Assembly: GCF_004210375.1 (NCBI RefSeq)
Contig: NC_134835.1
Location: 71,888,447 to 71,952,446 of the forward strand
Length of the DNA stretch: 64,000 nucleotides
Reading direction: 5' to 3'
Source of the DNA: Tachypleus tridentatus
Lineage: Eukaryota > Arthropoda > Merostomata > Xiphosura > Limulidae
Shown: piece after piece, positions 1 to 42,300 of the stretch
Position numbering within the stretch: position 1 is the stretch's first letter
How the letters are laid out: each line of letters opens with the position of its first letter
Program-made: the position numbers and the translations under genes
Notes under the pieces: model-generated
What the model saw: only the letters and a program-made list of their open reading frames with translations
What the model was told of the DNA's origin: nothing
The model's database searches: none

Positions 1-240
1 GGGGATTATTTCCATTAATCGTCCTTAATTTAGCAATGTAAGACTAGAGAAGGCGGTTAGTCATTACCACCCACCTCCAACTCTTGAGTTACTCTTTTAC
101 CAACGAATAGTGGGATTCGACCATCACATTATAACACCCCCACGGCTGAAATGGCAAGCATGTTTGGTGTGATGGGGATTCGAACCCGTGACCCTCAGAT
201 TACGAGTCGAACGCCTTAACCCACCTGGCCATGCCGGAGC
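1..240 (-). mobile_element. SINE, tRNA-Thr-like head (family A), truncated by the window edge
   Basis: Read on the minus strand, 240..~165 is a degenerate tRNA-like head. It has an A-box-like segment, an anticodon-loop-like CTCGTAA (CGT, Thr) and a B-box GGTTCGAATCC. The body (CACCCACC, ACGAATAGTGGGATT, TAATTTAGCA on the plus strand) is shared with the copies at 4614-4889 and 17959-18245. The 3' tail would lie left of the window. The anticodon stem has mismatches, so this is a SINE and not a working tRNA gene. Confidence 0.85.
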
Positions 241-1210: not shown

Positions 1211-1218
1211 TATCAGAG

Positions 1219-4613: not shown

Positions 4614-4889
4614 TTTGTTTGTTTGTTTTGGAATTTCGCACAAAGCTACTCGAGGGCTATCTGTGCTAACCGTCCCTAATTTAGCAGTGTAAGACTAGAG
4701 GGAAGGCAGCTAGTCATCACCACCCACTGCCAACTCTTGGGCTACTCTTTTACCAACGAATAGTGGGATTGACTGTCACATTATACACCCCCACGGCTGG
4801 GAGGGCGAGCATGTTTAGCGTGACGCGGGCGCGAACCGCGACCCTCAGATTATAAGTCGCACGCCTTACTCGCTCGGCCATGCCAGGCC
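4614..4889 (-). mobile_element. SINE family A (Thr-like head), full length with target duplication
   Basis: Full-length copy of the family-A SINE. On the minus strand it has a tRNA-like head (4889..~4812), a body shared with 1-240 and 17959-18245, and a tail with AGATAGCCCTCGAGTAGC, GCTTTGTGCG and AAACAAACAAA. It is flanked by the 11-bp direct repeat AAATCTTCACT at 4603-4613 and 4890-4900, the expected target-site duplication. It lies about 370 bp beyond the stop codon of the MOSPD1-like gene and so may be within or near its 3' UTR. Confidence 0.93.
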
Positions 4890-5262
4890 AAATCTTCACT
4901 ACTTTACTATGAAATGTAAGTATTGTCACTACTGTTTTTATGTATCTACACCTTTTAAATTTATACAATTCAATACCTCCTATTAGGAACTCTGAGTAAA
5001 TTTTAAAATATACTGTATCCCAGTCAAAAACATTAATATCAGTCATGTAAAATACCAAGAGAAAGTATCATACTGTATATACTGAGGCAATGCTTTACGT
5101 TTGATGTTCCACTCAACTGACATTTACATATTTTACAAAAAATACTGCAGTAATTTTTAATACATATTTATACTGAACACTTGATATTTATGTGTAATGC
5201 ACATATTTGTTGTGACATAAAATTTTTGAAGGTACTAATTCAAAAGGAATAATACATGTATA

Positions 5263-16910
<11,648 letters not shown>

Positions 16911-17037
16911 TGTTTGTTGGTTTTTGGAATTAAGCACAAAGTTACACAATGGGCTACCTGTGCTCTGCCCACCACAGGTATCGAAACTTGGTTTCTAGCG
17001 ATGTGAGTCAATAGACGTACCGCTGTGCCACGGGAAG
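16911..17037 (-). mobile_element. SINE family B (Val-like head)
   Basis: The minus-strand head begins with GTGGCACAGCGGTACGTC-like sequence and has a degenerate TTTCGATACC B-box. The tail reads GGGCAGAGCACAGGTAGCCC, then TTGTGTAACTTTGTGC and TTAATTCC. Same family as 18851-18966 and 22802-22921. Confidence 0.85.
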
Positions 17038-17739
17038 GAGTGCTCTTACAAGTCTTGTAGAAGAAACTATACACTACAATTAATAGGGTCTACCCACAAG
17101 TTCACCTTCAGTTTGTGCTCATACCATCATTGATAGTTCAGAATTTATTCAGGCTTATAAACTGTATTCAATTTTCTTAATAGCAACGAGTTATTTTTAA
17201 ACTTGTGGGGAAGCTTACTGTTATAAGATTGGAGATCATTTAAAATAACAATTTAATTTTAGTTTCAGGGACAGTTCAAGGATTCTTCAGCATGCAATAA
17301 ATGAATGATATGTTTCCAAACCCCAGTATATTCAAAGTAATTGATGAAGCCGAAAACGCAACTATATTAAAAGTGAGGGAAAGTTTTTTTATTTCCTCAA
17401 ATGAAACCGAGGTTAAAAAATTAGAAAACTCTACTGAAATTTTACTCGCAATTTAGGTAGCTAAACTTTATTTATATTTTCATGCTCAACTGCGTAAGTT
17501 TCATAAAACTCTCACTGTGCAACGCACTGGTACATTTGTTTAAAAATGACAAACCATAGCGTAAAATAATGAACCAGATTTTTATTATACAAAGGAGTAT
17601 TGGGTCTTTAATGTAATAACAGTCGAAGTTTGAACTCTGTTGCAACTTCTCTGCCACTTGAGCAAGAAGAAAGGCAGCGATACTGCTCTTCTTGAACGTA
17701 ATTACCAAAATTTCAAATCATAAAAGTACTAATGTAGTA

Positions 17740-17896
17740 TCTCCCATTCTTAGATTACTCGCATCAGTGACCATTCCTATTTAATACATTCAAAATGATA
17801 TCATCTCTCATCTCCCATTCTTAGATTACTCAAAAGTATAACCAGACAATCAGTGACCATTCCTATTTAATACATTCAAAATGATATCATCTCTCA
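17740..17896. repeat. Tandem duplication, two units of ~70-88 bp
   Basis: TCTCCCATTCTTAGATTACTC and CAGTGACCATTCCTATTTAA plus ATGATATCATCTCTC occur twice in a row. The second unit carries a ~19-bp insertion (AAAAGTATAACCAGACAAT). The units are otherwise nearly identical, so the duplication is recent. Confidence 0.9.
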
Positions 17897-17958
17897 GTTT
17901 GGGCTCAGTTGTGTTAACCAATTTAACATCTCTCAAGTTGGATATAATTCAAGGTGAA

Positions 17959-18245
17959 TTTTTGTTTGTTTGTTTGTTTGTTTGGGAATTTCGCACAAAG
18001 CTACTCGAGGGCTATCTGTGCTAGCCGTCCCTAATTTAGCAGTGTAAGACTAGAGGGAAGGCAGCTTGTCATCACCACCCACCGCCAACTCTTGGGCTAC
18101 TCTTTTACCAACGAATAGTGTGATTGACCGTCACGTTATACACCCCCACGGCTAGGAGGGCGAGCATGTTTAGCGCGACGCGGGCGCGAACCCGTGACCC
18201 TCAAATTACGAGTCGCACGCCTTACGCGCTAGGCCATGCCGGGCC
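17959..18245 (-). mobile_element. SINE family A (Thr-like head), full length
   Basis: Full copy with tail (TTTG)n, then GGGAATTTCGCACAAAGC, AGGGCTATCTGTGCTAGCC, the body and the tRNA-like head ending GGCCATGCCGGGCC on the plus strand. The head retains GGGTTCGCGCC on the complement. It is very similar to 4614-4889. No clear target duplication was seen. Confidence 0.92.
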
Positions 18246-18830
18246 TAATACTGTCATAATATCTATTTTTAATTTTGTAATTCGTTTGTTAGTTAGAAGG
18301 ATCCGTAGGTCTTAGTTACTATGTTAAGGTACACCTAGAAAATCGTGATTTGACATCAGAGCTTATCCAATACATTGTAAGTTAAATTATAAATAGGGAA
18401 TAACAGAAGATAGTTAAAATAAGTAGAACTGTTTCAAAACAAAGAATTGAATCAGTTAGTGTGTTTCTTGAATAATGTGGATCTTCGTTAGCTATCGAAC
18501 TTGTTGAGATACTCTGTACAATCTAGTTGAGTTCATATAAATTCCAGTATTCTTTGAAAGTTTGAACGTCATTTTTAACGTAGGCCTACAATGATTTACA
18601 ATAGTGTACAAGAGTTCAAGTTTATTGAGAAATTAAGGAAGAAAACAAATAAATGTATTACGGTTTACGTGGATTGGGCGTTTAATTATCTTCATCAAAT
18701 AAATTTATAAATGCATCACCTTCTTATACACTACATTTAAAAAAACCAAATAATTTAAGCAAGGATAAATAAAGATTTTTTTTAAAAGGTGGGTGCTCCA
18801 ACAGCCAATCACTCAAACAAAAATGAAATA
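18246..18830. other. Intergenic AT-rich stretch
   Basis: No exon-like or repeat signal recognised. Confidence 0.4.
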
Positions 18831-18850
18831 AAATTCAATATATTTGTGCT

Positions 18851-18966
18851 TGTTTGGAATTAAGCACAAAGCTACATAGAGAATTATCTGTGCTCTGCCT
18901 ATTACGGGTATCTAAACCCGGATTTTAGTGTTGTAAGTTCACAAACGTACCGCTGTGCCACTGGGA
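18851..18966 (-). mobile_element. SINE family B (Val-like head)
   Basis: Full-length family-B copy. On the plus strand it reads GGAATTAAGCACAAAGC, ATTATCTGTGCTCTGCC, ACGGGTATCTAAACCCGG and ACCGCTGTGCCACTGGGA. It is flanked by an imperfect 12-bp repeat, AAATTCAATATA (18831-18842) and AAATTTAATATA (18969-18980). Confidence 0.88.
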
Positions 18967-19000
18967 GTAAATTTAATATAACCTGAAAAATATACATAAC

Positions 19001-19119
19001 GTGTGTGTGTTTTCGTATAGCAAAGCCACAAAGTGCTATCTGCTCAGCCCACCAAGGGGAATCGAACCCCTGATTTTAGCATTGTAAATCCGGAGACATA
19101 CCGCTGTATTAGCGGGGGG
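19001..19119 (-). mobile_element. SINE family C (Val-like head) with perfect 18-bp target duplication
   Basis: Plus strand: (GT)n, TATAGCAAAGCCACA, CTATCTGCTCAGCCCACC, GGGGAATCGAACCCCTGA, ATTGTAAATCCGGAGACATA, CCGCTGTATTAGCGGGG. The repeat CTGAAAAATATACATAAC is present exactly at 18983-19000 and 19120-19137. The perfect flank marks a young insertion. Confidence 0.95.
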
Positions 19120-19137
19120 CTGAAAAATATACATAAC

Positions 19138-19709
19138 TAAATAAAACTAGCAAATAAACATAGTGTAAAATAAAATATAAAATTAATTAATCCAGACAAA
19201 TATCTCAGAGAGAATAATAGAAATTAATTTTCTAATTAAAACTGATAATAAGAGAAGAAGTATTAAAAAATAACCACAGTGAACGAGAAAGAATTAAAAA
19301 CAAAACTATATATTAAAATTCAGGGCAACACTACAAGCATACAATAAAAATTTGCACGGAGTCGAATGGAACAAATCTAGATGCAAAAATAAATATTATT
19401 CAAAACTAATATTAAAACTATCTGAACTGCTCAATATTTAATGCAGTTCCAAGTGGAATACGGAATAAAAACAAATGACGCAAAATTAAATGAAATGAAT
19501 CGCTGAGCATAAGTTAAAACACAGAATATATGAACATGATACTAAATTAAATACAGCATTTAACTTACAGATCAAGTATGTAGCTCAATTCCGTGGCGAA
19601 ATGAAATTATTCCCCCAATCTTGCGATGGTGATAAGGTTTATATCATCTGGTTTCAGAGCAAAAAGCAGATCAACCAATAAATAATCAAGAAATTTATAA
19701 AGACATATA
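19138..19709. other. Intergenic AT-rich stretch
   Basis: Purine-rich on the plus strand; no coding or repeat family recognised. Confidence 0.4.
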
Positions 19710-20760
19710 CAGTGGTGGAATAATGCATTGCATCGTTTAATTTCCTAAACTATACTACAGAATCTTCGTTTATTTTCATACCCTAAGACATGTAGATTCA
19801 AATATGTTTCTTGGATGATTCTATACTGTCTAATTATTAAATTAACGGCTTTAGAGGCTGTCTGAGTATTGCATGAGCCGTTGTTTGTCAATAAGTAGAG
19901 GTTGTTACTGACAGTCTGTTTAGAAGTCTATCTACTGCAACATGCATGTGAGGCTATCATGGCCAAAGGTTGCAATTTAACTCGATGAAAACATACATTC
20001 ATTGTTTTTTGAACAACTATAGACTTTTGATGAGGCAAATTGCTAGAAGAATTCAATCTAACCAAGCTGCTCTCAAACACTTGGTGTAGAGATATAGAAA
20101 GAATGACTGTAAAGAGAAGAGGAAAGATAAAAAGAAAGCTTCCACATTTGCCTGCGATCGTGTTCTGGATGCATGAGTTTACAGAATCATCGACTGTCAC
20201 CACAATGTATCAAAGTCAAGAGCACTACAGGAACCTTCAGAGATTGCTGTCGCCTTGCACATCATCCATTCTCGCCTTTATTCAGCTAATATTTAACTAA
20301 AATAGACAAGAAATAAACCCCTCATCACCAACAAAATAAGGCCCAACTGGGCCAAAGAGTATGTTGATTGAATTGAAGCGATGTGGAACAAGAGATCTTC
20401 TAAAATGCATCAAAGCTCAACCTGTCCAAGTGCGATGGAAAACACATTGTACAACATTGATGTGGAGAAGAGTTTCATCTAGCTTTCTTAATGCAACTGT
20501 GTTACCTACAGAGCCATGTGATATGGGGATGTATCTCGAGCAAGAGTGTAGGTCGAGTATATTCTGTTAAAATGTTGTCAATGCCGACAAGTATATTCAA
20601 ATCCTCGAGACCTGGTTAAAGCCATGAATTCAGTATGATTTTGGTGCATATGAATAATGCGTATTTCAGAATAGCTCTGATCCATACCACAAGGCTAAAA
20701 AAGGTCAATAATATTCAGCAATCCATGCAGTATTCGTGAAATAATGAAATTTCTCTGAAT
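19710..20760 (+). pseudogene. Old Tc1-like transposon relic
   Basis: A candidate 5' terminus is CAGTGGTGGAATAATGC at 19710, next to TA. The transposase remnant is scattered over frames: LLMRQIARRIQSNQAALKHL (helix-turn-helix, ~20020-20080), YRKNDCKEKRK, then NKIRPNWAKEYVD (20332-20370, the linker before the catalytic core), NADKYIQILETWLKP (20583-20627) and YHKAKK (~20686). These pieces are in the order found in Tc1 transposases. Stops and frameshifts occur throughout and the catalytic residues cannot be followed. No matching 3' terminus was found. Confidence 0.65.
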
Positions 20761-20959
20761 ATGTATTGAAAAGGCATCTTAGATTTTATTTCATTACTTA
20801 AGGTGAAAGACTAATTGTGATGGGAAAGGACTAACACATTATTCTGGCCAGACACTAGCTCAACTCTCAACCAAGAGACAATCTGATGCTTTTTGGTACA
20901 AGGTTTAAAGTCCTTCCATCTGTTGGCAGCATAGTGCTAACAGTGACTGTCCAATTTCT

Positions 20960-21865
20960 CGATCATTTTTATCACCATATACTCAGAAATGATACTTGGA
21001 ACAATCATAGAAAGTTTGATGTTCTGGCTTTTTGCATGAAGCTATGAACTAAAGCTTACTGAAATTGCCAAATATTATTCTATTATTATGTGTGAATAAA
21101 CTTTAAGTTCATTTTCTGGATATGAGGGACTATGAGCCCCCTTTATCAGAGAAAAATAGTAATATCCATTTCTTCCAGAGCTGCAATGAAATATATTTTG
21201 ACCACACACACGTACTCATTCTAGTTATAAAACTATGGAAGATACCACTAAAAATGAAAGCCTGAGAAATAGTGGTCAGGGCTTGACCAGATCATGGTTG
21301 CAGAGACAGTGACTGTGATATTTATGCTGCGATGATTGGCACTCTCCACTTTTGGCAATGTTGTAGAGTTAGAAGGATCTTTTATCTGCATCATCTTCTC
21401 TTGTAAAATCAAGGAGCACACAGTGACTGATAGGCTAAGTATGTAATTCAAATCTGTGGTCAAATGGAAATATTCCTCTTTTTTGTATAAGTAATCAGAT
21501 TTTTACTAGTTGGTTTCAGAGACAGCAGCTAGTAGTCAAAAACTGGTCGTTTTATTAAAACTTGAAACCTTCAAATCAATTTAGTCTCTGATAGTTCAGA
21601 TATTCAGTTAACAGTAAAAGGCTGTGCTTCATAATTTGCACACTAATAGTGGTTGGAGCAATCACAGGAAGTTGAGTAATTTCATTCTTTACATGAAGCT
21701 GCAAATATAAGCTTGCTGAAATTGCCAAATATAGCTCTAGTGTTAAGTGTCAATAAACTTTGAAAAGCTTTCTAGAAATTGGAAACCATGGTGCTCCTTT
21801 TTTCATACGAAAAAGAAAATATTCATTTTTTTCATAGCTGTGATGATATATCTGGTTGCGACCAC
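20960..21865 (+). repeat. Diverged direct duplication, spacing ~657 bp
   Basis: About 200 bp at ~20990-21205 recurs at ~21650-21865. Shared blocks are GGAACAATCA/GGAGCAATCA, GCATGAAGCT/ACATGAAGCT, AAGCTTACTGAAATTGCC/AAGCTTGCTGAAATTGCC and AATAAACTTT. The relation to the Tc1 relic just upstream is unknown. Confidence 0.6.
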
Positions 21866-21869
21866 AAAA

Positions 21870-22801
21870 TGTCCAAGAAAACATTTACCGTATTGATCCT
21901 GTTATAAGGCGATGTTTCTAGCCATCTACCCATCTCTCAGTTTTTAGGACATATCAAGAACATAGACATAGCTGTTATCATGGCTGTCCAAAACTTTTTA
22001 TCTAAGAGAGTACTTCTCCTAGTCCTTGTCAAGAGCATACGAGGTATGAGACCGCACACGAACCCACTCTTTGCTAGACTTATATTAATAATTATTTCTA
22101 AACTCCTTATCAAAAACATACGTTTAAACTGGTCAGAAGTAATTGTGGTTCCGATAATTCAATAATAAATCGTTGCAAACTTTTACCAACAAACTGTCAG
22201 TCAAAACATATGTGATCAAATCAAAGCTAAATATTGTTTAGATGTAGGCGAAATTCAGCGTGAAAGTTCACATGATAGGTCAGTGTCGATTAATATAAAA
22301 AATCAATTTATTTGGAGTATTCTCTTTTTTTGCAGCTGCTTTTTATGTATAGCAAAAGGTTTAATGATAAGGTATTATATACAATCAAAATTACTTTCGA
22401 AAAAATAGAAGAAAAATTCACGTAAGCCTGCCAGTCAGTTTTAAGTACCTGAGTAAAGTACAATACATCCTACCACATTGTTTCAAATAGTTTGATTGAC
22501 TGTATTTTGTTCAGTAAAATATTTGCCTTTTAGCAAAAAGTCTGCGGTGAACAGTTGAAAGTTTATTTTCGTTTTCCAGTTGTGAAAATTCAAGTTATTT
22601 AAAACTTGAAAGTCAGAAAATAGTTAGATAGTTCCTAAAACGAGAAAGAAAATGCCAAAAAGGTATATAGTAAATGACCTAAAGATGGGCCAACAAAATG
22701 TGAAAAAACTGCTAATAGTGGGTAACTGCCAATCTTTTCGCACGAAATAACAGCAAAAACTAAGCCATTTCTAAAATCAATTTGGAAATTTAACGTATTA
22801 G
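21870..22801. other. Intergenic AT-rich stretch
   Basis: Nothing recognised; the open frames near 21937-22165 overlap on both strands. Confidence 0.4.
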
Positions 22802-22921
22802 CTTGTATGAAATTAAGCACAAAGCTACACAATGAGATATCTGTGCTCTATCCACCACGAGTATCGAAACTTGGTTTCAAGCAGTAAGAGACCGCAAACA
22901 TTTCACTGTGACTCAGAGGAA
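22802..22921 (-). mobile_element. SINE family B (Val-like head), diverged
   Basis: Plus strand: GAAATTAAGCACAAAGCTAC, GATATCTGTGCTCTATCCACC, GAGTATCGAAACTTGGTTTC. The head is more mutated than in the other two family-B copies. Confidence 0.82.
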
Positions 22922-23798
22922 TAAAGTATTAGTAACAGTAAATACAAAGTACTGAATCATAGTATTGTAAAGTAAACCCTGTACCTTGTTAGTCACCTTC
23001 ATGTGATTTGTACGATGCATCTACTTGACCTAAAGTTTCTACCAACGAACTTAGAGTAAGAATTATGAAACACAAACCAATACAGCTTAAAGAAACCAAC
23101 GCTTAATTTCCAAAACTTCTGATTGCCGCAAAGTAGAATCCACAAATATTAACAAACCTTGTTTAGTTTACCCTATACTGGCAGATGCTGTATTTTACTT
23201 TTGCTGTAAGCGATTTGGTGAAGATCGGAGAGTATTTAATCAAAGGTTTTCCAAATAAAAAAGGTTATCTCGAACACTATCTGAACACTAAGCTTACCAA
23301 TTACACAAAGATAAACTTCTAGAAATCACTTTACAAAACGAAATTAAAATAGAAAAACACATTTTCAAAAACAAAACTAAAGAAGGCAAAACAACGATGG
23401 CATGGACTGTATCTTGTATTTAAAGTCACAGAATTTAGTCTTTCATGATTCATATAACAATGGAAATGTTTTTACAGCTGCTGGAGCTATCACTCAGACA
23501 TGATCCTTCATGGCTGATCATTTGCAATCCGTTCGGCAAATCGCTAGAACTGAATAAAAGCTCAATAATCGGAGCGCTTTCGAAAGGTCCACCTTTCCAA
23601 GGATTTCAGGTTATAGAATTTTGTTCATTTCTATCAAGACGTTTTGAACCTACATATTTTTCTAACATTATGAATTCAGAAAGTTGCTAACGTTCGTTAT
23701 TTAGCAAGGATAACCAACATAAATTTGAGAAGCTGTTAGCTAAGACTGTGACTGGAAGGATTCGAGACAAAATTTCTTTTGTTTTAATAACACAACTA
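22922..23798. other. Intergenic stretch
   Basis: No feature recognised. The 81-codon open frame at 23445-23690 has no recognisable domain and no supported splice context. Confidence 0.35.
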
Positions 23799-23916
23799 TG
23801 TGTGTGTTTTCTTATAGCAAAGCCACATAGGCCTATCTGCTGAGCCCACCGCAGAGCATCAAATCCTTGATCTTAGCGTTGGAAATTCCTAAATTTACCG
23901 CTATACTACTGGGAGC
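23799..23916 (-). mobile_element. SINE family C (Val-like head), diverged
   Basis: Plus strand: GTGTGTGTTTTCTTATAGC, AAAGCCACATAGGCCTATC, TGCTGAGCCCACC, a degraded GAGCATCAAATCCTTGATC B-box side, and ACCGCTATACTACTGGGAGC. It is about 250 bp upstream of the ZRSR2-like start codon. Confidence 0.85.
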
Positions 23917-24169
23917 TACGATCCTTGCACTGAAATAAGAAGGTCGCGAATGGCAATGCAGAATAGTTCGTAAATTTTCAGTTGTATTGAGTAACATAGG
24001 AACAATATTAATGTTTTTATAATGATCTTAAAAATAACAAAATTTAGCTATATTTAATTCAAGTTTAATAAGAAACATGTTCCAGAAAAAAATAAAATAA
24101 CATCAAAGTATTTTAAAAATATTACCATTTCATTCAAATTTGGCCACAAGATGTCACAATATAAGTAAA
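23917..24169 (+). promoter_or_regulatory. Probable 5' UTR/promoter side of the ZRSR2-like gene
   Basis: 253 bp between a SINE and the proposed start codon. No TATA box at a convincing distance and no GC-rich island. Placement is inferred only from the start codon downstream. Confidence 0.3.
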
Positions 24170-24300
24170 ATGGCAGTTGTTTGTAGTGCGACTGATACTA
24201 CAACTAGTGATTGTTTTTTAAAATTATCACATTTAACAGGATTAAAAACTATCGTTTTTCAAGAAGTTTTAAAAAAATCAAAAACGACTATAAAACTGAG
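24170..24300 (+). CDS. ZRSR2: ZRSR2-like exon 1 (start exon)
   Basis: ATG in a good context (AAAATGG), 43 codons plus AG, then donor GTAAGA. It encodes [15 protein letters not shown] then a Lys-rich end ([11 protein letters not shown]). The two leftover bases join the first T of exon 2 to give AGT (Ser), producing SHKK as in ZRSR2. The phase fit and donor quality support it, but there is no homology in the first ~40 residues. Confidence 0.65.
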
Positions 24301-27300
24301 GTAAGATTATCTTATTTATACTGTTATCTACTCACAATGATTTCAATTTAATAACTTAATAATTTAGTAACCCTAAAACTTAAGGATAACGTCAGATTTA
24401 AGAATGGAACTAAAAAGTACAAGTAGGTGAACGTGATAACTACAGTTTCTGGCGTAAATAAGTTGTGTATTTATTTTTAAATAATAGTAGTAGTGTTTTT
24501 TTTAAAGAAAGTAGAGCCTTGATGTAACCTGATTTTGAATTTCCACTGAAACTTGGAAATGTATAGGTGTTTAAACTTAAAAAGACTTTAATTTAAAAAA
24601 GTTTAGTATGTTATTAAGGAGCTTGAAATTTAATTAACTGCATTAACTTCTTTACTAGTGATTGTGTGCTGGTAGATTGATTGTTTCTAAGATTTTGTTG
24701 GATAATTGTTTAGATATAAATGGGTATATTAAGTAATATAAATTCAGCAGTTTTGTATGACTTTGATTAGATTTAGGATGGCCATCTGAATTACTGAGAG
24801 TGCCATTTGTTATTTCTTTGGCTAACCTCAGAGATGATCAATTCATAAGAAAACCCAAACTACCTTCATTTTAAGGAATTGAAATTATGCTGGACTATAA
24901 ACTAAAGTATCAAGTTTCATAGGTTTCGCCTTCTTTTCTTAATGACAAAAAATTTTCTACCTATACATTTGACTTAACTATTTGATGTTTCTTTAGATTT
25001 CTGTTACTTACATAAGTATGTAATTTCAGTATGAAATTTATAGCATTCTAAGTTTTTAAATATGGAAAACATATTCTTTGCATTATCTAAATCAAACTAA
25101 GGGTACCTGTTAAGAAAGCAAAAATTGTGTAAAGAACAATTTGGATAATGTTCTCTTTTATTTTGGAAATTCTTAATTGCATACTGTAATTTGTAGAAGG
25201 TAATAATTGACTTGTTTAACTGATTAACTACTTGTGTCTCTGAATTCAAAAGTACATATAAAAAGTGGAAATGTGCCAAATTTGAGGGTATTTTATTTTT
25301 ATATTTCTTTTGAGCAAACATCTTAAAATAGCCTATTTTCATGTTCAGGCAGTTTCCAGTTATACAAAAAATTATAATGATTAAACCAGGCAATTCTGGA
25401 TGATGTAAGACAAAAGTATATACAAAATGTTTTTTCTTTCACCGTCTTTTTTTTTTTTTTCATCCTTCTTGGGCAGATATCCTATAACAAAACAGTTCAT
25501 AAACATTGATGGACAATAATAATAAATATATTTATTAAGCCAGCCAACTCTAGATGTTGAAATCCCCATTTATATTAGAAAAAAAATTAAATATGTGCCC
25601 TATTTCACAGATTTTCTTTAATTACTCTCCTTGGTAATTGAGGCAACCAACTCTACATTATTAAAGCCAAATGCCTATAAAAATTTGAAAATGTACCCTA
25701 CTTCAGGATTTTTTTCACTTTTTTAGTGAAAGTCTTGAATAAAGTAGCTAACATAAGCTGTCAGATTATTTCCAAATATCTGAAGAAAAATTAGAGTAAA
25801 GACAAGATTTTTAAAAATATTTTACCTTTTCATTTTTAAAGAACAATAACAGATGTAAACTTGTTGAATCAAAATGGTTGTAGGTAAATGTAAAATCTAC
25901 TTTTAAATTTAAAAGCAAGAAAAGGTATGTGAAAAAAATGTATAAATATTAGAGCAAGGGATTTAAAAGCTACTTAACTAACATTAATAACTACAAATAA
26001 AATTGCCACGAAATACCCAAGAATACTTTAGAAAAGAGCCTTGAAATAATTTTCATTAAATTTATCAAAGCATAGTAGTAATTAGCAAATAAGCAAATAC
26101 ATGTATGATCTAATGCAAAAAAAAACAAAGCAAGAACTTTATTCAACAGACAACAGAAAGATCTTAAAAGGTTATAATTAGACTTAGAAAAAAGTTTAAA
26201 ATGGCAACTTAAATTTATATTTAATACAATTTCATTGGGATTTTTAGTGCCATTCAGTGACAATTCCAGAGTATTCTTAAGTGACCATGACTTATTCTTT
26301 ACACTTTCTTTTTTACATTCCTATTAAAGTTTGTTTTTATTAATACAAGTGTTAATTCAAAATTTGCAATTATTAGGGACATCTCAAAAATAACCATTTG
26401 TATCATGGTAGGTTGTGATAATATATGCTGTTGACTTTTTGTTTTGTTTTATTAAAAATCAAAGTACTTAAAGAAAATATGGTAAACTTTTCTAAAGTAT
26501 TATAATAAAAATATAAGTGTCTTGGTAGGCTTTAAGTGGCAGGAAGTCTAAGCCTAAACATTCAGAAGAATCCATTAGTTTTATTTTCTATACTTCTCCA
26601 AAAAAGGCAGCTACACTAAATCTTGAAACTATGAAATGAAGGAGCACATTGTAGGTTATCCAATTATCTATTTGCTACATTGTATAATAACAAGCTGTCA
26701 TTGTGTTCATATTGGTCTCAATTTCTAGACCGATTTACTTTTTTTTTAGGATGGATATCCTAGTCAGTATTTGTCCAACCAGTTTCTACATCCAGTTATG
26801 AATACCTTTATTTTTAACTTTTTATTAAGGGTACTTTCATAAGCCATAGGGGTCTCTGCCCTGTGTGTTTAGCCTATTTTTTGCATAACATGCCATTTAA
26901 GATGAAAATTCCAGTTGCTTTTTTCCTGAAACTTGTAATACTTATTCTGTATGTATCTTTTATGCTCTGTCTTTCACACTGTAACATTTTACTCTTTTTT
27001 TTTTCACATTGTTATTACACATTCATTTTATCATTTGCCTTCTGCTAGAAATTTTGACATTTTACATTTAAATACTTATCTTTTGTTGTTTTTGATTTTT
27101 AGACATCACCAATAAGCCTTTCATTCTGTTGATTCTTCTTTAATATTATTGTTTTTTCCCTACATCATTCATTTAGTCCTAAGACTGGCAGTTTGAGAAG
27201 GATATTTGCTTCTAATTTCTACCTTATACTTTCAGTGAGACGTGCTTATTTTATACTAGATAGATTGTTTTTGCTGATCAAGGAGTATTGTAATTTTTCC

Positions 27301-30300
27301 TGTGCTAAACAATTCCCTTGAATATACCCTTGCTTCTTCATCCATTTGAATCTCAAATGCATGCATATCTGTTTCTTGCAACTTTTGCTGTCAGTTGTTA
27401 AATTTTTTTATTCAAACTGCTGTTAGTGCTTTCATTAGTTTCCAACTCTGATCTACAATACATAGATTGCTAGACCTAAAATATATTTCAAAGTTTATAA
27501 AGTTGATGAGTACCATTGCAACTTCTTTTTCTTAATGATCATTATTTGAGGAAATAATAGTCTTTCTTTTTTTATTACAACTTCAAAGTATTCAAAATCC
27601 ACTGTCCTTCATTTGAAGTATTGAACACAATACTTTTATTTACACTGCAATAACAAGTGCTGTAAATATTTCAAACTCTCCTTTGAAACTAGTGTATGTG
27701 TGTGTAATTTTGGTCTTTCAACTCAAGGAATATTATGGATTTTCAAATGATGATTTCTAAAATGATAACTTATTGGACAGTGTTTAATGTTCGATACGGT
27801 ACAATACCTCTGCTCACATAAATAGTTTCCATCTGTATGCAAGTTTTTCGATTCTATTTTTATGCATGCCATAAGCCTTTTATCATCCCTTATTTGGAAT
27901 TGGCTGATTCCAGAGCATCTCTCATGCAAATTATGACAACCCTCAACCAATAAGCGTGCAACAAATTCTCTTGAGTCATGTGACTCCCTCTATTCAATTC
28001 TACCAAACCATCACATTTCATTTCACAGTAATCATATTCTAACATTTATTATGTGCTCTGCAACAGTATTTTAATACTTTTCTGCATTTTTTCAACCAAG
28101 AGTCAACCAAGTACCAGTGTTGGAAGTTCTCAACAGGTGTTGTGGACATTGTGTCTGATGCTCGTGTTTGGGTATAGTATTCACGAAACCCTGGCATTGC
28201 TGCAGTGTCCTTATTTGGCATTGTAGGACTCCATGGTGGGTAGAGTCAGTGGGCACTGAAATTTTCTTTTTTTCCTATGGATCCTCCTAATAAAATTTTA
28301 AATAGAATAGTGAAAAAACAGTCAATAGGTAAACAATCACATCTTGAAGACTCAGATCAGCAATCTTCAATGTCTGAACCACCAGTTGTACTTCATTTTC
28401 TCATCCTACATTCTCTTTTGGAAAAACCTTTAGGGCAAATGTCCCCATTTTTTATTCAGAACGGACTGGAGGGACTTGCTTGCTCTCCAGAGTCAGTAAA
28501 GAAGCTTTGATCTGGAGACATATTGGTTGAAACATCCACATCCAAACACAGTGAACTCCTCTTGAATTCAAAGGCAATTGGGGATGTACCTATTGAGGTT
28601 ACCCCTCATGCTACCTTGAATTCTTCATGAGGAGTTATTGTTGAGAGGGATTTGAAGAACGTCTCTGAGTCAGAGATTCTTGCTGGTTTCTCCACTCAAG
28701 GAGTTGATGCAATGAGGAGCATCTCCACTCACAGAGATGGAATAACACTGCCAACAAAGATCCTCGTCTTGACATTTACATCACCACGTGCACTTGCAAC
28801 CATCAAGGCAGGCTATCTAAATTGCAGGGTACAGCCGTACATTCCAAACCCTCTCCGATGTTTCCAGTGTCAGAGATTTGGCCACTCAAAGGACCATGAT
28901 GCCTATGAGTGTGAAGAGGACCCACATTGTGTCAGTTGCAATGGCTCTCACTTGTCCTACTTTTGTTCTTGCACTAAATGGTTGGAGGAAAAAGAGGTGC
29001 AATGTTTAAAAACGACTCATAACGTTACTTATCTTGAGGCTCGGAAATTGCTGTCCAACACTTTGTCTAGGACATATGCTGCTGCACTTCATTTCATAAC
29101 TACAGTGGGAGTGCAGACAGATCTCTCTGTGCCTCCAAAACAATCATTCTCAAAACAAGTGAAAAGCCTTTTGACCTCCATGGTTAAAAAAGTTGATGAA
29201 TCAACTTCTACACCCATCTCTGTTCTTCCCATACATTCCAACAAACCCCATGATCCACATCCTTTGGTTTCAGGTACAGGCATTTTTTCAGATACATCTT
29301 TTTCTCCCACCCCAAGATGCAAAACAATCATTCATTCGCATCTTCAGTCACTGGAATCCCCTTGCAACAACAAAGACCTGTCCAGTCGACCCAGGGCAGA
29401 ATCCATGGAGGTCAATACACCTTCCCCGAATAAGGACAGTAATGAAAAGAGACGTGGTCATAAACAGAAGAAGGGTTTTCCATCCGCTTTGCCTACGCTC
29501 ATTAAAAATGGCCACCTTGATACAATGGAACTGTCCAGGTTTACGTTCTAATCTGGATGACATTGAAACACTGATTGCTTCCTACCATCCTGTATGTCTT
29601 TCCTTACAAGAAACATTTATGAAACCTGCTGGTACAGTCACCTTTTGGCAGTGTTCTCTGGACGAGTACATGGAGAGGTGGCACTGTTGGTTGATCAGCA
29701 TGTGTCCACCCTGTCTTTGTCACTTAACACACTCTTGGAGGCCAAAGCCATCTGTGTTTCCTTGGGTCATACCATCACTGTTTGTTCTCTCTTCTTGTCA
29801 CCTGGAGAGACATACGATCAATCAGATCTTAATGCTCTTGTTGAACAGTTGCCGTCTCCCTTTCTAATCCTGAGGGACTTCAAAGGACATCATCCCCTAT
29901 GGAGAAGTTCCGTTATTGACAGGAGGGGTTGCACTGTAGAGCATATTTTCTCTGATCACAACCTTACTCTTTTCAATACTGATTCTTTCACTTATATTCA
30001 TGCACCTAGTCAGTCGTTTACTGCTACTGATCTCTCGGTTTGCTCCCCTTCATTATTCTCCCATTTTTCATGGAGGGTTGACAATAATCCACGAGGCAGT
30101 GATCATTTTCCTATACTTTTGAGACAGACTGGCCATGGTCAATGCCAACCTACCTGCGTGCCCTGGTAGAAGCTGGATCAAGCAGGCTGATCCACTTTCA
30201 CTGCTCTCGCAGAACTTGATCCTGCCATCACCTGTCAGCCATCAATAGATGACTGTGTGGCAGTGGTAACTGACTCTATTATACAAGCAGCTGCTTAATG

Positions 30301-33300
30301 TATTCCTAAAACCTCGACACATTTTCCACTATATCCTCATCCGTGGTGGAATCCTGTCTGCCACATGGCATGGAAGGCTCAAAAACGGGCCTTGGATACT
30401 TTCCATAGATATCCCATACTTTCAAACTGCATCACTTTCCAGCGAGCCCGTGCACATGCTAGGTGGGTAGGACATCAAAGCCAGAAGGAATCTTGGATTA
30501 AGTTCACAACTAGCATATCTTCAACCACCAGTTCCCAGGTCATTTAGGACAGGGTTCGGAAGGTCAGTGGGCACTACAATTCTGTCCCCATCTCGATCTT
30601 ACTCTCTAATGGCCAAGAGGTAGCTGATGTCCGGAGCATCGCCAATACTCTTGGTGAAAGCTTTTGCTGGGTATCTAGCACTCCTGCTTGTTCCTCCACC
30701 TTCTTGGCCATAAAGACTCGGGCAGAGCATTTACCTCTTTCCTTTTGAACTGACAGTCTCTTTGACTATAATCGTCCCTTTACACTGGTGGAACTGAAAA
30801 TGGCCCTTCTTCGGTTTGGCAGTACACCTGTTGGACCAGATGATGTACACTATGATATGCTGCACCATCTATCTCCTGCTTCTCTTGATATTCTTCTAAT
30901 TGTTTTTAACTGGATCTGGTAGGAGAATGTTTTTCCTTATGCCTGGCACCAGACTATTATCTTGCCTTTCTCTAAGCCTTACCTTTCTCAAGATTCCTTC
31001 AAACTACCTTCCAATTGCTTTGACAAGCTGTCTCTGTAAGACCTTAGAGAGAATGGTTAATGCTTGTCTTGTTTGGTTCATCGAATCAAACAACCTCCTC
31101 TCACCCACCCACTGTGGGTTCTGACGACAGTGCTCCAACATGGACCACCTAATTCAACTTGAAACGTCAATCTGAGAAGCCTTTCTCAAATGACAACATC
31201 TTGTATCAATATTATTTGACATTGATATGGCTTATGACACAACATGGAGGTATGGCATTTTGTGAGACCTCCATATATATGGGTTACGTGGCCATTTACC
31301 CACGTTTATTAAAATTTTTTTAATGGACAGGAGATTCCAAGTTCGTGTGGGTTCGACACTTTCCCATTCTTTTCTACAGGAACTTGGGGTCCTTCAGGGC
31401 TGTGTTTTTAGTGTCACACTTTTCAGTATAAAGACTAATGCCATCACTGAACAACTCCCTCTCACTGTTGCAAACAGGCTCTATGTCGACGACTTTCACA
31501 TCTCGAGTCAGTCATCGAGCATGAGATATACTGAGCATCAACTACAAACTGCCCTCAATCATGTACTGAAGTGGACCACGGTGAACAGTTTTAATTTCTT
31601 TCTCTCTAAAACTGTTTGCATGCACTTTTGTTGCCAATGAGGTATTCATCCTGATTCTGAACTCCGTATTGGTGAAGTTTCACTGCCTGTGGTCCCTGAG
31701 ACCAAGTTCTTGGGGCTTATCTTTGACTATAAGCTTACCTTTATACCACACTTAAAGCAGCTATGGGTCAAATGCATAAGAGCTCTGAACATACTCCATG
31801 TCTTCTCTACCACCTGTTGGGGAGTGGATCAATGTTCTATGTTGAAGATATATTGTGCTCTTATTTGATCGAAACTCGACTATGGATCAATGGTCTGTGG
31901 CTCTGTCAGACCCTCGGCCTTAAAGATGCTGGACCCCATTCATCACCAAGGACTTTGATTCTGCACTGGGTCTTTCTGCACCTCTCCAGTCCAGAGATTA
32001 TACATAGAATCTCATGAACCTTCTTTGCACCTTTGCAGTTTGCAACTGTCTTTACTATATTCTTCTAAACTTTGTTCCTTACCAAAGCATTCCACCTGAG
32101 GTTGTGTTTTTCTTCTTTGGTGGGCCATACTTTTTCAGAATAGATGATCTGCCATTGTTCCTTTTGGCCTTTGCATCCAGGAGAAATTGGATGAATTGGG
32201 TCTGTACTTGGATAACGTTGCAAAATATACTGGTTAGCCCATCCCACCATGGCTTATTACAGTCCCCAATTGTGACCTATCTTTATGTCATCTGAGAAAA
32301 ATAGATACTCCCAATTGGAAGTACTGTCATTTATTTACTGAACATTTTTCGAACAATCTTTCCATTCCAATTTATACAGATGGATCCAAATCAGGTGTCT
32401 CTGTGGGTTCTGCCATGGTTTGTTGCGGTTCGGTAGTTGCACGCAGAATTCCCCCTACAGCTTCTGTGTTCACTGCTGAATTGTACACCATTTCTCTTGA
32501 CCTGGATCATATTGAAGCTAAGCAGTACTCCAACTGCATTATTTATGCTGACTTGCTTAGTTCTATACTGGCCCTGGAATCGCTTCACGCTGGTTCACAC
32601 CCTGTTCTTGCTGATATTCAAAACCGACTGGCCCATTTCTCTTTAACATCTACTTCTATCCAGTTTTTCTGGATACCAAGCCACTTTGGTATTCGCGGGA
32701 ACGAGCTTACAGACATGGCCGCTAAATCTATCTGCTCTGGCACTATCACCACTGTGCCTATTCCATACATGGACTATAGTCCTGTATTCAGGGCTCGGCT
32801 CCATGCCAGCTGGCAGTTGACTTTGAGTTAGCAACGCAAAAACAAACTTTTCTAATTAAAACCCTATATTGGACTTTGGCTGTCTTGCTTCCATAAGGAT
32901 CAGAAGGAGGAAGTTGTTCTAACTAGACTACGCACTAGTCACAGTTTTTTAACTCATCATTTTCTTATATCTGGAACTGATGCACCAATGTGTAGTTTGT
33001 GTAACACTCAGATCACTATAAGCCACCTTTAACTTTCTTGCCATCGTTACGACTCTCAATGACAGCACTATTTTAACCATGTTATGGGTGACGGTGACAC
33101 TGTCTACCTTGATAAAGTTTTTAGTTTTTTAATGGCCATTAAACCTTTTTTATTGTGGTTCCCTTTTAACAGTCACAATCTCTCTAGTTCGATTTGAAAT
33201 TAGAAAGTGGCTGTAACATAAAATAACTCAACACCAGGACTGGAAAGGCCAACTTCAGATGACTATCGCTGCTGTTTGACATATCCATTTGAACCACCCA

Positions 33301-36300
33301 TTAGTCGTCCTGGCGAGTAATTATTACAATTTTGCTCATGTCTTTTAACACTTTTATTACTTTACTTTTTGATAATGACTGTAATGACACATAACCTGGA
33401 ACCAGGACTGGAAAGGCCAACTTCAGGTTACTGACAGTGATTCTTGTACTTGCCTGTTAGTCTTCCTGGTGGGTTATGATAATTACCATTATGCTACAGA
33501 AAGTCCTTTATAACTTCACTTTCTGTAGTTTCTCTCTTAACATTGTAGAATGGATGTCAACAATGGTTTTATGCCATTTATGTTTTTAATTGCTGTTTTG
33601 TTTTACCTTCATTTCCTTTTATATATTTTACTACATTTACTTTACTTTTACCTTTTTACCAGATGCTTGGCAAGTTATTACAATTTTGCGACATGTCTTT
33701 TAAGACCTTTATTACTTTACCTTTTGATAATGGCTGTAATGACACATAACCCAGAACCAGGAATGGAAAGGCCAACTTAAGGTGACTGATGGTGGTTCTT
33801 GTACTTACCTGTTAGTCTTCCTGGTGGGTTATGATAATTACCATTATGTTACAGAAAGTCTTTTACGACTTCTTTTACTTTGGTTTCTCTCTTAACATTG
33901 TAGACTAGATGTCAACATTGGTTTTATGCTGTTTGTGGTTTTCAATGCTGTTTTGGTTTACCTTCATTTCCGTTCATGAATTTTACTACATTTACTTTAT
34001 TTTTACCTTTTTACTGGACATTTGGTGCAGATAGCCTAGCTGCTTTGTGCCATAAAACACAAAATCAACCAACCAACCCTACTTAATATCTGGGTGTGTG
34101 TATGCTGCATACCATATGTTCCCTACATCAGCAAAAATATAACCAACATTGAGAAAAACTTAACAAAACCCAACATTCTAGTAAACACCAAATTTATTCA
34201 AAAACCAGGTACAAAACTGAAGTCCATACTATGTAAAAACTACACTGACAAACACAACACCAACATACTTTATAAAATACAATGCAACAACTGCCACAAC
34301 TTCTATGTTGGACAAAGAAGCAGAGAAATGGAAACTAGATTCAAAGAACACAAAAAAGTAACTTAGAAGGTTCTCAGAGAAGTTAGTAGAAACCCTTGTT
34401 TGATGAGTAATGACATACAAAAACTGGTAAGGGAAACTGGGGTTGAAGTAAGCACCTCTACAGTTATGAACATGTTACACTCTTTTGGGTTCAAAGCATG
34501 CCGTCCTCATAGATCTCCATATTTAAAGCCTGTTCATTTAGAAGCACAATTGAGGTATACAAGAAAGCATGTACATAAACTCTTTACCTGTTGGAAGAGT
34601 ATTCCTTGGTCAGATGAGACTAAAATCCAGCTTTTCGGCCACAATGATGTTCGCAATATTTTCTGTAAGAAGGGGGAATGAAATCTTCCAAAGAACACCA
34701 TCCCTATAGTTAAACACAGAGGTGGCTCGATCATGCTATGGGCTTCCTTCAGCTCTTCTGATGTAGACAGCCTTCACCGCATCAACGGAATCATGTAAAA
34801 AGAAGAGTACATTGATATATTAGGCACTTATATCAAAAATGATGCTTGGAACTTGTGGCTTGGGCATTGTTGGATCTTCCAGCACGACAATGACCCTAAG
34901 CACACATCGAAATATGTGCAATCCTGGTTGCGGAGGAACCATATAAGCATTCTAGAGTGGCCATTGCAATCACCTGATCTCAACCCAATTGAAAATGTTT
35001 GGCATGAGTTGAAGACCAGGGTTCATCAGCATCATCCGAAAAACTTGCAAGAGTTGGAGGCTTTCTGTAAAGAAGAATGGAAGAAAATACCAATTGAGTA
35101 CCATCAAACGATCATGGAAGGCTATGAGAAGAGATTGCATCAAGTAATTCACCTGAAAGGCTACACAACTGACCATTAAAGTAGACAAACAAATACTTTC
35201 TGCCCCTCCTATGTTTGTTTGTTCATAAACAGTTTGTCATTCAATTAACATAAAAATGTATGTAGATGTGTGTTAGTATATTATTTATAATAACACTTTT
35301 TAAATAACATTTTGAGTTATGAGGAAAAAACTACTCATGACGCAGGGGTACGAACACTTTGTCGTAACTGTATTAAGTAGGGAAACAAATATAAACAAAT
35401 GTAAAATCATAGAAGCCCTACTTATACAGCAACTAAAACCGAAATTAAACCAATGTAAAGGAACACCTTTATACCTAAACTAATTACTAATCTAACATCC
35501 ACCTGGAACGCCCCCTACAATCCCGTACCTGTTCATACTCTCATCTCTAAGACGTGTCCATCAACAGTTACATTCAAATTCTCTCTTTCTTAATTTGAAG
35601 ATGACAGGAAGGTTGAAACGTTATCTTCTTATTAATAAAAGTGTTAATATATGTACCAGCCGTTCTGAGATACATAAGTATATTACTTTATATTATTAAC
35701 ATGTATCCTGTTCATGAGCCAGGGAGATTTGAAATTCTCCCTGGTCTCTTTAACTTGAGGTGAATGCGGTATAATTCTTTTTCCTGCCCCTGCCTGATTG
35801 CTGGGATTTAGATTGTAGTTGATTTGGCATCATTGTGAACCTCTTTGCCACACCCCATGTGGATGTTGGTTCCTGGTGGCCTGACTTTTGGATTGTAATA
35901 GACTTGGTGGTATGATCCTTTTTCCTATTCCTACTTGAACACAGTTCCCAGCAGCATGGGTTTTGGATGTAGTTGATTTGCCACATATGATATATCATGC
36001 CCTTGCCCCTCTACACCCAGGGGACCATCCATTTCTTTTACTCACTTTTATACATTTTGGGAGTGAGTTTCATGGATCCTACATTATTCAGGTCACTGTC
36101 CAGCCATAGTTCTCTCCCACTTGAATGTGCTGCTCTGTTTTTTCACCCATACATGCTACATCTTTCCACAATGGGCATAGAGTATGCCTGTGTCAGAAGT
36201 GGTGTGGTCTCCCACATCAGATCTTTGAATCTCACTGTCTCATCTTCGGGAGTGCCCTTTGGATACTTTTGAAGGATACTTCTTTCCATTGCACTAGTTT

Positions 36301-39300: not shown

Positions 39301-42300
39301 TTTCTGTTACTACTGGATTCTGTATTGCAATGAACAATACATTTTATTAAAATAAAGTTCTAGGGTTAATCTTGATTTCCTACTTGTTATTGTCTTATTT
39401 TTCTACTTGTGCACCTTGTTTATTGTATTATGACAAGATTTGAAATGTATTCATTTTTGCAGTTATAAACAGTGATGTATGACAACATATTAGTCAGTTG
39501 CATGATAATATACACTAGGCTTAGCTTCGTATTCATTACAAAGTGTAATTATTTAATTTATTTAGTTCAAGGTTCTTAAAATTTGCATTTTTTTATGTTT
39601 AACATCAAAATCCACCAAAGGTAAGAGAGAACATTGCTGAATGGCTTGAGTCTGTGAAAAATTCAAATATCCTTACAAATAAACATAATTTTATCGAATT
39701 ATTTATTTATTATTATTATTAATTAATTACCATTTTTTACTGTGTACAGTAAAGAATTGGTGAAAGTAATGCTTACTAGATGATGGTATGTTGATATTAT
39801 GCAATATGCCTTCTAAAAAACCATTGAAACAAAAGCTTCATAGAGTGGTTTACATAATTTCTTTTTATTGTGGTACCAAAATAACAATATACAATAAGAA
39901 GATACAGATAATGAGATGAAAGCAAGTGTTATTGTAGATGTATCACAGACAGGAGAATCTGAGACAAGATCAGACCATCCCAGTCACGCCAGTAACAATA
40001 AAAAAAATCATGACACTGATAGTGACAAGTCTAAATCCAAATCTAATGCTGATACATCCTTACAACACAAAAATTATGAAGACAAAAAGAGGAAAAAGCT
40101 TGGAAAAATTAATGTGAATGTGTAATGTATAATAATGAGGAAGATTTCGTGTTCTATTTGTATTGTTGAAAAGATTACTGGTACCAAAAAACAGTTAAAG
40201 AAATTGATGAAAGCAAGCAAGGATTTTTAAAAAGATATTAAAATTCCATCAGAAATGTAGAGCATGTGTAAAATGTAGTGCAGCAATCCAAGAAATAGTT
40301 GCACCCAAATTGACTCCCATGGCCAAAATACAGAAGCACATAAATGCAGACAATAAGGCAATAAGTAATGTGTGACTTAAAAACATCTTACTTAATATAA
40401 AATGTGTCCATCTTGAAAGTGTGTAGAAACTGCATGTGAGAATAACATTTTCAAATCATTTATGATATTTGAAAATCAAATGAATATAAATAATGCTTAT
40501 GTTTTTGTCCTAAGTATGACAGTAATGATTGAAAGTACACAGACTGTAGGTATACCCCATGTAATGAAAGAGGAAAGTGAAATTTTCCTATTAATACCTC
40601 TAGCAACCACCCCTACAGCCACAACTGGAGCTATCAAATTAATGCATGTAAATGAAAAATAACTTCTTGACATGATCAGAATTGTTCTTAGTTGATTAGA
40701 CCATATTTGACAGGTCCAGATGCAAAAGTCTAGGAGTGGGTAGAGAACAAATAAACAAACCACTCAAATTATAGTAGGATAAAACACAGTAAATAAGCAG
40801 GTCTATTATAAAAATGTATAATTCCAACAAGGCATATATGTAGATGTGGGCTTCCAAAATTTATACTTGCCTTATTATATCTACATGTAATATCCAAACT
40901 CACATTACTAATCATATGACCACTTAAACTTCATTTGTTAAGTTTATTGAAACTTCTTATCAACTCTGAGTCTTAACCAGAATATTTAAATTACTTTGCT
41001 TTCAAATATACACATAAAATTTCAAACAAATCTTTAAAGATGAAATTTTATAAACCAGATATACCAATTATTCTAGTAACTTGTCTCTACACTTTTCCAA
41101 AATTTTGTTATTTTTATTGTAATAGTTGGTTGGTTGATTTAGTGTTTTATGGCACAAAGCAGCTTAGGCTATCTGTGCCATATTATAATAGAAGGACTAG
41201 AGCTGTATATTAGTTTAAATTTAAGGGATCCCTATAGATTATTTGAAGTTACAATAACCTTTTTACTATTAAATTAAAAATTCTCTAAACAAATTCCATG
41301 ACTTTTTTTTTACATCATTTTCACTGCATCTAAATGATCAGTAGAAATTTTCAAAATTCTGATATGATACATACCTCTCTCACACAAAACCTTTTACTAG
41401 TCTTTATCTTCCCTCTAATGCATTAAGAAATTTTATGTTCACTTGGCTCATTAGCCTTTTTACCCCCTCAATTAAAGCTGCTCATTTGGCATGTATAGTG
41501 CATGTGACAACCCTCCACCAGTGCAGTAGGATACATTCTCTTGGAGCAGCTAACTCCCTCTGTATTATATTTCTGGAATTTCACTTTCTCAATTGGCATG
41601 CTGAGAGTCAGACAGGTTTCTTGCTTACTTTTGATATGCTTGTTTTGTGAATATTTCATATTTTATTGCCTACCCACATATGTGCTATTTTTCAAGTTAG
41701 TCTAATGTCTAATTTGTTTTTCTAATATTAGATTGTATTTCACATTTGTTGCAAATTATAAATTCACATGTCAATTTTCATTCTCCCATTGATTTTTTGG
41801 GGGGAAACTTGGGTCCCTTTGTGGTCAATACTGCCATGTCTTTTTCTCTACTCTTTCCTTGTTGAGAAGGGGTATGCCTCTTGCAGAAAACATTTGCTCC
41901 CATCTTCCCTCAAGGCCACATCATTTTAAGTGATATTGTGTTTATTCAGAGTTCTGGGTTTATGTGACTGGGTTGTATAATACTGTATCTTTTCTGGCAA
42001 GTTAGTTATCTCAACCTTCTTCCTCTTCTAGTGATCCTATTGTTGTGTCACATGCTCCTAAGTTCACACCTCATCCTTTTCCCATACCTGTCATAAACAT
42101 CAGGAACAGTATCAGAACTATCCTCTGAAATCAAGTTCTATAGTGGTCAGGATCCACTGCTTCATGGACATTTGGAAGGCATCCTCTATGTATCAGTGGA
42201 TCCTATGGGTTTTAATAGAGGGTCTATCTCTTCAATTCTGTTCTCCCCCACTCCCTTCCTTTTCCTCCACCCTTTTTCTTCATACAAAAAGATCTGGTTT

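Follow-up and report, generated by a model that had tools for sequence, protein, structure and literature searches.

Mobile elements of the window

The window, i.e. the whole stretch of 64,000 nucleotides analysed here, lies on contig 11 of the genome of Tachypleus tridentatus (2.17 Gb, 205 contigs). It contains a degraded LINE, a tail-only LINE insertion and copies of three SINE families, named A, B and C. These features are given with window coordinates, strand, description and, in brackets, the evidence:

28100..33860, plus: LINE body, degraded, 5' limit approximate (Pfam domains, genome relatives with open frames)
28631-29551, plus: gag-like ORF without Pfam match (ORF)
29567-30169, plus: endonuclease (Pfam Exo_endo_phos_2, 6.2e-14)
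31266-31640, plus: reverse transcriptase piece (Pfam RVT_1, 1.4e-8)
32238-32831, plus: RNase H (Pfam RNase_H, 1.3e-6)
33860..34077, plus: LINE 3' end with 3'UTR, hairpin tail 34025-34050 and (AACC)n (similarity matches, exact tail motif, LINE tail alignment)
41125..41181, minus: tail-only LINE insertion, little beyond hairpin and (AACC)n; 11-bp duplication with one mismatch (exact motif, flanks)
1..240, minus: SINE A, old subfamily, at the window edge; no recognisable tail (repeat similarity)
4614..4893, minus: SINE A, young subfamily; tail 4638-4663, (AAAC)n; 11-bp target-site duplication AGTGAAGATTT (exact motif)
17960..18250, minus: SINE A, young subfamily; tail 17993-18018, (AAAC)n; duplication not found (exact motif)
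16910..17037, minus: SINE B; tail 16931-16966; 11-bp target-site duplication ACAAGACTTGT (covariance model)
18843..18967, minus: SINE B; tail 18861-18896; duplication not found (covariance model)
22796..22920, minus: SINE B; tail 22814-22849; 7-bp flank in common, CTAATAC, which may be chance (covariance model)
9511..9626, minus: SINE C, head alone, tail decayed (repeat similarity)
19000..19120, minus: SINE C; tail 19015-19048, (CA)n; 18-bp target-site duplication GTTATGTATATTTTTCAG (covariance model)
23799..23913, minus: SINE C; tail 23812-23845; duplication not found (covariance model)

The window LINE encodes endonuclease, reverse transcriptase and RNase H in this order, in frames broken by stops and frameshifts, and we take this domain set to be that of the I-like group of LINEs. 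Searches of PDB and NCBIfam gave no informative match. The lineage is present elsewhere in the genome: the reverse transcriptase piece had 19,265 first-look candidates, of which 150 were scored, and open frames among these reach 1020 aa. With 40 of at least 2,243 candidates scored, the LINE 3' end (33860..34077) matched itself and 39 others at 91-94%. Four LINE copies chosen among the 150 listed all carried the hairpin described below, which in one of them has a substitution in GCTTTG. Behind the hairpin come CATAAAACMCTAAATC and an (AATC)n repeat or, in one copy, a short AAATC repeat. A second degraded copy of the same lineage lies at 43761-45050 (ORF 44132-44617).

The 3'UTR of the LINE further contains up to three units of ~110 nt of apparently structured RNA (window ~33211-33339, 33379-33507 and 33734-33862), also seen in loci L111-L114, L033, L034 and L041. 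The core of these units, ACCAGGACTGGAAAGGCCAACTTCAGGTGACT, hardly varies, and a three-way junction is predicted for them. RNAalifold on 13 of 19 units predicted 28 pairs, five of them with two-sided changes, and Rfam on one copy (L113) gave just two weak matches with E up to 5 (E 2.3 and 4.3). Apart from the LINE and the SINEs, the window holds remnants of DNA transposons, namely a 169-nt inverted repeat (34184-34352 with 50689-50857) and two transposase fragments (34799-35179 and 52791-53192; DDE_3 5.9e-11, Transposase_1 6.2e-18). The region 935-3286, bounded by 74-nt inverted repeats with 80% complementarity, is perhaps a DNA transposon as well.

Consensi of the SINEs draw on two kinds of copies, those retrieved by similarity and incidental ones that lay in sequence flanking other loci. 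Among the incidental copies B and C are intermixed, since their heads are alike; the C consensus was made from 20 retrieved copies out of 40 listed. SINE A measures ~262 nt plus (AAAC)n and comprises an old and a young subfamily; SINEs B and C have ~111-113 nt, with a tRNA-sized head joined straight to the tail. Median divergence from the consensus, determined on incidental copies with duplicates still included, was 13.7% for old A (53 copies), 2.7% for young A (5), 17.4% for B (23) and 19.0% for C (16). Seven incidental C copies (L007, L021, L028, L065, L078, L086 and L089) form a C-like subfamily with tails near CAGCAGATAGCCCGATGTGGCTTTGCTRTAA. As expected for SINEs, the elements are short, dispersed in many copies, flanked by target-site duplications and terminated by a 3' repeat; first-look candidates in the genome, which are lower bounds and not whole copy numbers, amounted to at least 3,609 for A, 3,954 for B and 3,599 for C, compared to at least 2,243 for the LINE. 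In SINE A the tRNA-like head and the tail are separated by a long middle part, a layout in which it may resemble the MetaSINE superfamily. A search of papers for sequence strings found none, no title or abstract on these families came up in a literature search, and exact matches to a 44-base pattern of SINE A and to a 27-base pattern were absent from viral_contigs and genome_contigs, respectively. SINEs are described, in a passage of the report on a horseshoe crab genome, as a small part of the repeats (PMC7815833).

A hairpin tail common to the LINE and three SINE families

SINEs A, B and C and the LINE have in common a tail of the form CAGATAGCC-N(5-9)-GCTTTG, flanked by stem-forming arms and located in each family at the 3' end, just before the terminal repeat. 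Such sharing had been claimed in the preliminary description and, indeed, the window has four exact occurrences of CAGATAGCC-N(0-30)-GCTTTGTGC, compared to none in 100 dinucleotide shuffles. The sites belong to SINE A (4638-4663 and 17993-18018, minus strand), to the LINE 3' end (34028-34050, plus strand) and to the tail-only LINE insertion (41152-41175, minus strand), which had been missing from the preliminary list. The tails of B and C are present in the window in altered form and were found by a covariance model of SINE tails, B at 16931, 18861 and 22814 and C at 19015 and 23812 (E 5.9e-13 to 1.9e-6); two of the 24 training rows of this model were window copies themselves (B at 16931 and A at 17990, locus L001). 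No tail was found by the model in the SINE C copy at ~9511-9626, and the edge copy of SINE A (1-240) has none that is recognisable. The genome as a whole has 4,242 tails of A/B type (counted with A or T at position -4) and 3,268 of LINE type, with 0 matches to the reversed control pattern in both cases.

The description of these ends as one tail holds for the hairpin of ~25-30 nt, but not for what follows it. The terminal repeats are (AAAC)n in A, (AAC)n or (AAAC)n in B, (CA)n in C and (AACC)n or (AATC)n in the LINE, and the bases directly 3' of the hairpin differ as well: AATTC is common to A and B tails and was seen in no LINE copy. Since the 3'-most bases and the repeat units differ, the tails do not establish recruitment of one same LINE subfamily, and the differing repeats together with AATTC leave room for another, better-matching LINE. 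The exact partner subfamily was not found among the LINE 3' ends sampled, which represent part of the lineages of the genome.

A model built from 35 LINE tails only (one of them, L031, the window copy again) was run on the window and 40 of 114 loci (161 kb). It returned 43 rows: 39 lay in tails of A or B, at 35 distinct places (the other four rows being window places met again through L001 and L061), two in LINE tails and two elsewhere, of which one is the antisense of a LINE tail. The model recovered the own tail of the SINE in 10 of 10 A loci, in 16 of 20 B loci and in none of the 10 C loci searched; no C tail was among the 43 rows. The SINE rows were weak singly (E 0.02 to 6.1), and their weight lies in the near absence of anything else that ranked alongside them. 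In the opposite direction, a model of 24 SINE tails was applied to the window together with 24 LINE loci. Its 35 rows comprised 23 LINE tails, 11 SINE tails and one place elsewhere; the LINE tail was found in 21 of the 24 LINE loci (E 0.0013 to 4.1), plus two in the window.

Alignments of the consensus tails to two LINE consensi were equalled by none of 1000 shuffles for A, by 47 and 17 for B and by 35 and 28 for C, so that, in these pairwise alignments alone, the likeness to the LINE expected from the preliminary description exceeds chance for A but is marginal for B and C. A and B tails agree in 32 or 33 of 38 columns (old or young A), AATTC included, and are closer to each other than to the LINE. 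Upstream of the hairpin the similarity falls off, again as predicted: in 10-nt bins from -11 to -50, LINE and SINE consensi were identical at 2-5 of 10 positions, which is near chance, and in the bin adjoining the hairpin, which holds a stem arm, at 5-7 of 10 for A, 2-3 for B and 3-4 for C. With one of the two LINE consensi the best alignment of A continues, gapped, past the hairpin for another ~45 nt on its upstream side; towards A the boundary is therefore less sharp than towards B, and A may resemble the LINE further upstream.

Pairing of the tail arms

The stem of the hairpin is 6 to 9 bp long. In it, a CAGA/UUUG block that is nearly invariant is followed by a bulged UA and a GC/GC step; the loop is variable. 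For the LINE consensi the hairpin is the fold of minimum energy. For SINE tails taken with short flanks, folds of lower energy than the single hairpin exist, with -9.3 vs -14.0 kcal/mol for old A, -7.8 vs -9.7 for young A, -10.2 vs -13.6 for B and -9.0 vs -12.4 for C (hairpin vs minimum).

Pairing was analysed in an alignment of 56 tails (48 distinct), picked from 131 listed and comprising 13 LINE, 20 A, 12 B and 11 C tails, with nine column pairs. The fraction of paired stem cells was 85.0% vs 74.6% in shuffles, 53 cells had changed on both sides yet were paired (shuffles 16.6 +/- 6.5), and the covariation score was 0.300 vs 0.138; none of 500 shuffles was as high in any of these three measures. 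Slid registers reached at most 54.2% paired and at most 25 two-sided cells, and results with the inner GC pairs were similar. Two further measures, according to the notes of the tool those least misled by relatedness, did not stand out: five pairs with two-sided change were counted vs 4.2 in shuffles (151/500 as high; a slide of the register by -1 gives six), and 16 further pair types vs 14.9 (173/500). With the inner pairs these counts rose to six vs 4.3 (24/500) and 19 vs 17.1 (74/500). Since three of the five measures of compensatory change lay above all 500 shuffles and the two relatedness-robust ones did not, pairing of the arms is demonstrated for each family, but independent compensatory events are few.

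For counts per family, tails with more than three core substitutions were excluded and those with three were dropped (A from 83 to 77, B from 37 to 28, C from 29 to 28, LINE 35 throughout); the final numbers also leave out L001, L031 and L061 because of their overlap with the window, as well as the duplicates L050 and L056. The innermost variable pair forms in 66 of 73 A, 25 of 27 B, 26 of 28 C and 31 of 32 LINE tails, and it is mostly A-U in young A and in B, G-C in old A and in C, and G-U or A-U in the LINE. In 100 listed genome-wide A/B-type tails it was G-C in 43, A-U in 33, G-U in 18 and mismatched in six, i.e. 94 pair; within A, its two sides were associated with p = 9e-6, by a statistic that ignores descent. 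Decay of CG dinucleotides could be the source of part of the change from G-C to A-U. The CAGA/UUUG block and the GC/GC step hardly varied at all. Pair -4 was formed in just two of 73 A tails, and pairs -3 to -5 in three, five and three of 28 C tails.

Probable recruitment of the hairpin by unrelated SINE heads

The heads of B and C were identical in 62 of 74 columns (shuffled maximum 48) and represent one lineage. The A head agreed with B in 46 of 84 and with C in 45 of 85 columns, with shuffled maxima of 49 and 50, and thus has no likeness to either beyond that of shuffled sequence. Since the B and C heads are of one lineage and A is unlike both, the count of independent recruitments is corrected from three to at least two: the repeated recruitment proposed earlier stands for A and for B/C, but not for a third head. 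The heads had further been typed as one Thr and two Val tRNAs, which was not confirmed. With ARAGORN, neither the window nor the consensus heads yielded a tRNA; Rfam gave sub-threshold tRNA-Sec matches in six of six C loci tried and no tRNA match in the one B and the one A locus tried. A box-B-like GGTTCGANNCC is present in old A and C and, in relaxed form, in B; young A has none.

Full-length SINE copies (duplicates removed) had a flanking word of at least 9 bp in common in 65 of 132 cases, compared to 1.19% in the control. The commonest duplication length was 11 bp in A (16 of 33) and C (7 of 15), and 11 and 12 bp in B (5 and 5 of 17). For the LINE, six copies with a visible 5' break were inspected, the others extending beyond the sampled sequence: L034 has a duplication of 12 bp with one mismatch, L042 one of 12 bp exactly (14 with one mismatch), the tail-only copy of the window one of 11 bp with one mismatch, and L044, L050 and L056, which stem from one event, have none. 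In a blind upstream search, duplications of 9, 10 and 11 bp were found in 10, 4 and 2 of 35 LINE cases vs 10.8, 2.8 and 1.2 in the control, and of 12 bp in two vs 0.03, one of the two being a SINE match. The similar lengths in SINEs and LINE fit one type of endonuclease, without being proof of it. A joint mobilisation of LINE and SINE as a composite, considered for L044, L050 and L056 in which a LINE tail directly precedes a SINE A tail, as if a LINE were using the tail of the SINE, was rejected: the three are 93-95% identical to each other over 2.6-3.2 kb including the downstream flank and are therefore duplicates of one nested insertion.

Taken at the level of sequence, the common tail is most likely the means by which the SINEs hitch-hike on the copying enzyme of a LINE, a strategy already known. 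We consider it probable that the tail is the 3' recognition hairpin of the LINE, carried by SINEs of two unrelated origins (A and B/C) and driving their insertion. Transcripts of family A and of the B/C lineage, for which the head may act as Pol III promoter, would bear the hairpin at their 3' ends, where it would be bound by the LINE reverse transcriptase; the LINE endonuclease would nick the target, reverse transcription would begin at the short terminal repeat and the SINE would be inserted with a duplication of ~11 bp. Stem bases outside the CAGA/UUUG block would be free to change while most of the pairing stays.

Recognition of a LINE 3' hairpin that is exploited by SINEs is established for other LINEs, and the present case probably works like these. 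In the stringent-type pairs of the L2 clade (eel UnaL2, zebrafish ZfL2-1/ZfL2-2), as presented in PMC4176376, the SINEs also have the 3' stem-loop of the LINE in common, stem pairing matters, part of the sequence is fixed and the stem contains a bulge; the same paper reports that an L2-clade LINE protein, in binding its 3' stem-loop, recognises the stem generally and the loop specifically, and that a bulged nucleotide matters in UnaL2. The comparison is one of described features. Unlike these pairs, the present LINE has RNase H, only ~25-30 nt are common and the terminal repeats of the partners differ. A 3' sequence common up to the terminal repeat, as in the stringent type, is found here for the hairpin alone and is weak for C. 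SINE/LINE pairs are widely known, with the CR1 and RTE clades predominating, according to PMC3747384, and Table 1 there lists Gecko of Aedes aegypti as a tRNA SINE with the tail of an I-type LINE (I-74_AAe, MosquI). Gecko is listed as a SINE with an I-type LINE tail in a protostome, as the elements described here may be if the present LINE is of I type; it differs in species, and here two unrelated SINE heads carry the same tail.

The driver was presumably the LINE lineage of the window itself. There is a substantial chance, somewhat short of even, that it was another, unsampled LINE family with the hairpin by descent, the window LINE being a cousin of the true partner. Such a partner would account for the terminal repeats and 3'-most bases that differ between the LINE and A, B and C, and an RVT_1 search revealed at least 150 reverse transcriptase places whose 3' ends lie outside the comparison. 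Against it, a search for a better-matching LINE in ~357 kb of sampled sequence, a small part of the 2.17-Gb genome, gave 23 fuzzy tail matches outside the four families vs 31 in the reversed control, and the few intact-looking ones look like decayed B or C copies. A second reading, which we regard as rather doubtful, is that the tail was passed from SINE to SINE by template switching or recombination, A and B tails thus going back to one capture and not to repeated recruitment from the LINE. The closeness of A and B tails to each other, with AATTC followed by an AAAC or AAC repeat, speaks for this, but an unsampled LINE subfamily with an AATTC end could just as well have been the source of both, and passage between SINEs would leave the relation to the LINE in place. 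That a short motif arose separately in four families by chance or convergence is very improbable: although the fixed core has just 15 bases and the pairwise alignments of B and C to the LINE are marginal by themselves, the pairing maintained across families and the LINE-only model that ranks SINE tails first together disfavour it, as do the shuffled and reversed controls, with thousands of tails genome-wide, and the position of the tail before the terminal repeat in each family.

Starting from the preferred reading, in which SINEs carry the recognition hairpin of the LINE, we tentatively suggest, as a possibility only, that unrelated SINEs took up the hairpin of one LINE lineage, in which the UA bulge and the CAGA/UUUG block are fixed, on at least two occasions, and that LINE subfamilies and their SINEs then underwent parallel changes of the stem (G-C, A-U and G-U at one and the same pair) as the terminal repeats diverged. 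If true, a single genome would document, in this parallel change, how LINE and SINE tails followed each other over time. Since two unrelated SINE heads and several LINE copies bear the hairpin, the recognition rule may be read from sequence, and the tails would constitute an experiment of nature on the features of its RNA that a LINE enzyme reads, with bases that are fixed set apart from bases that are free as long as pairing holds.
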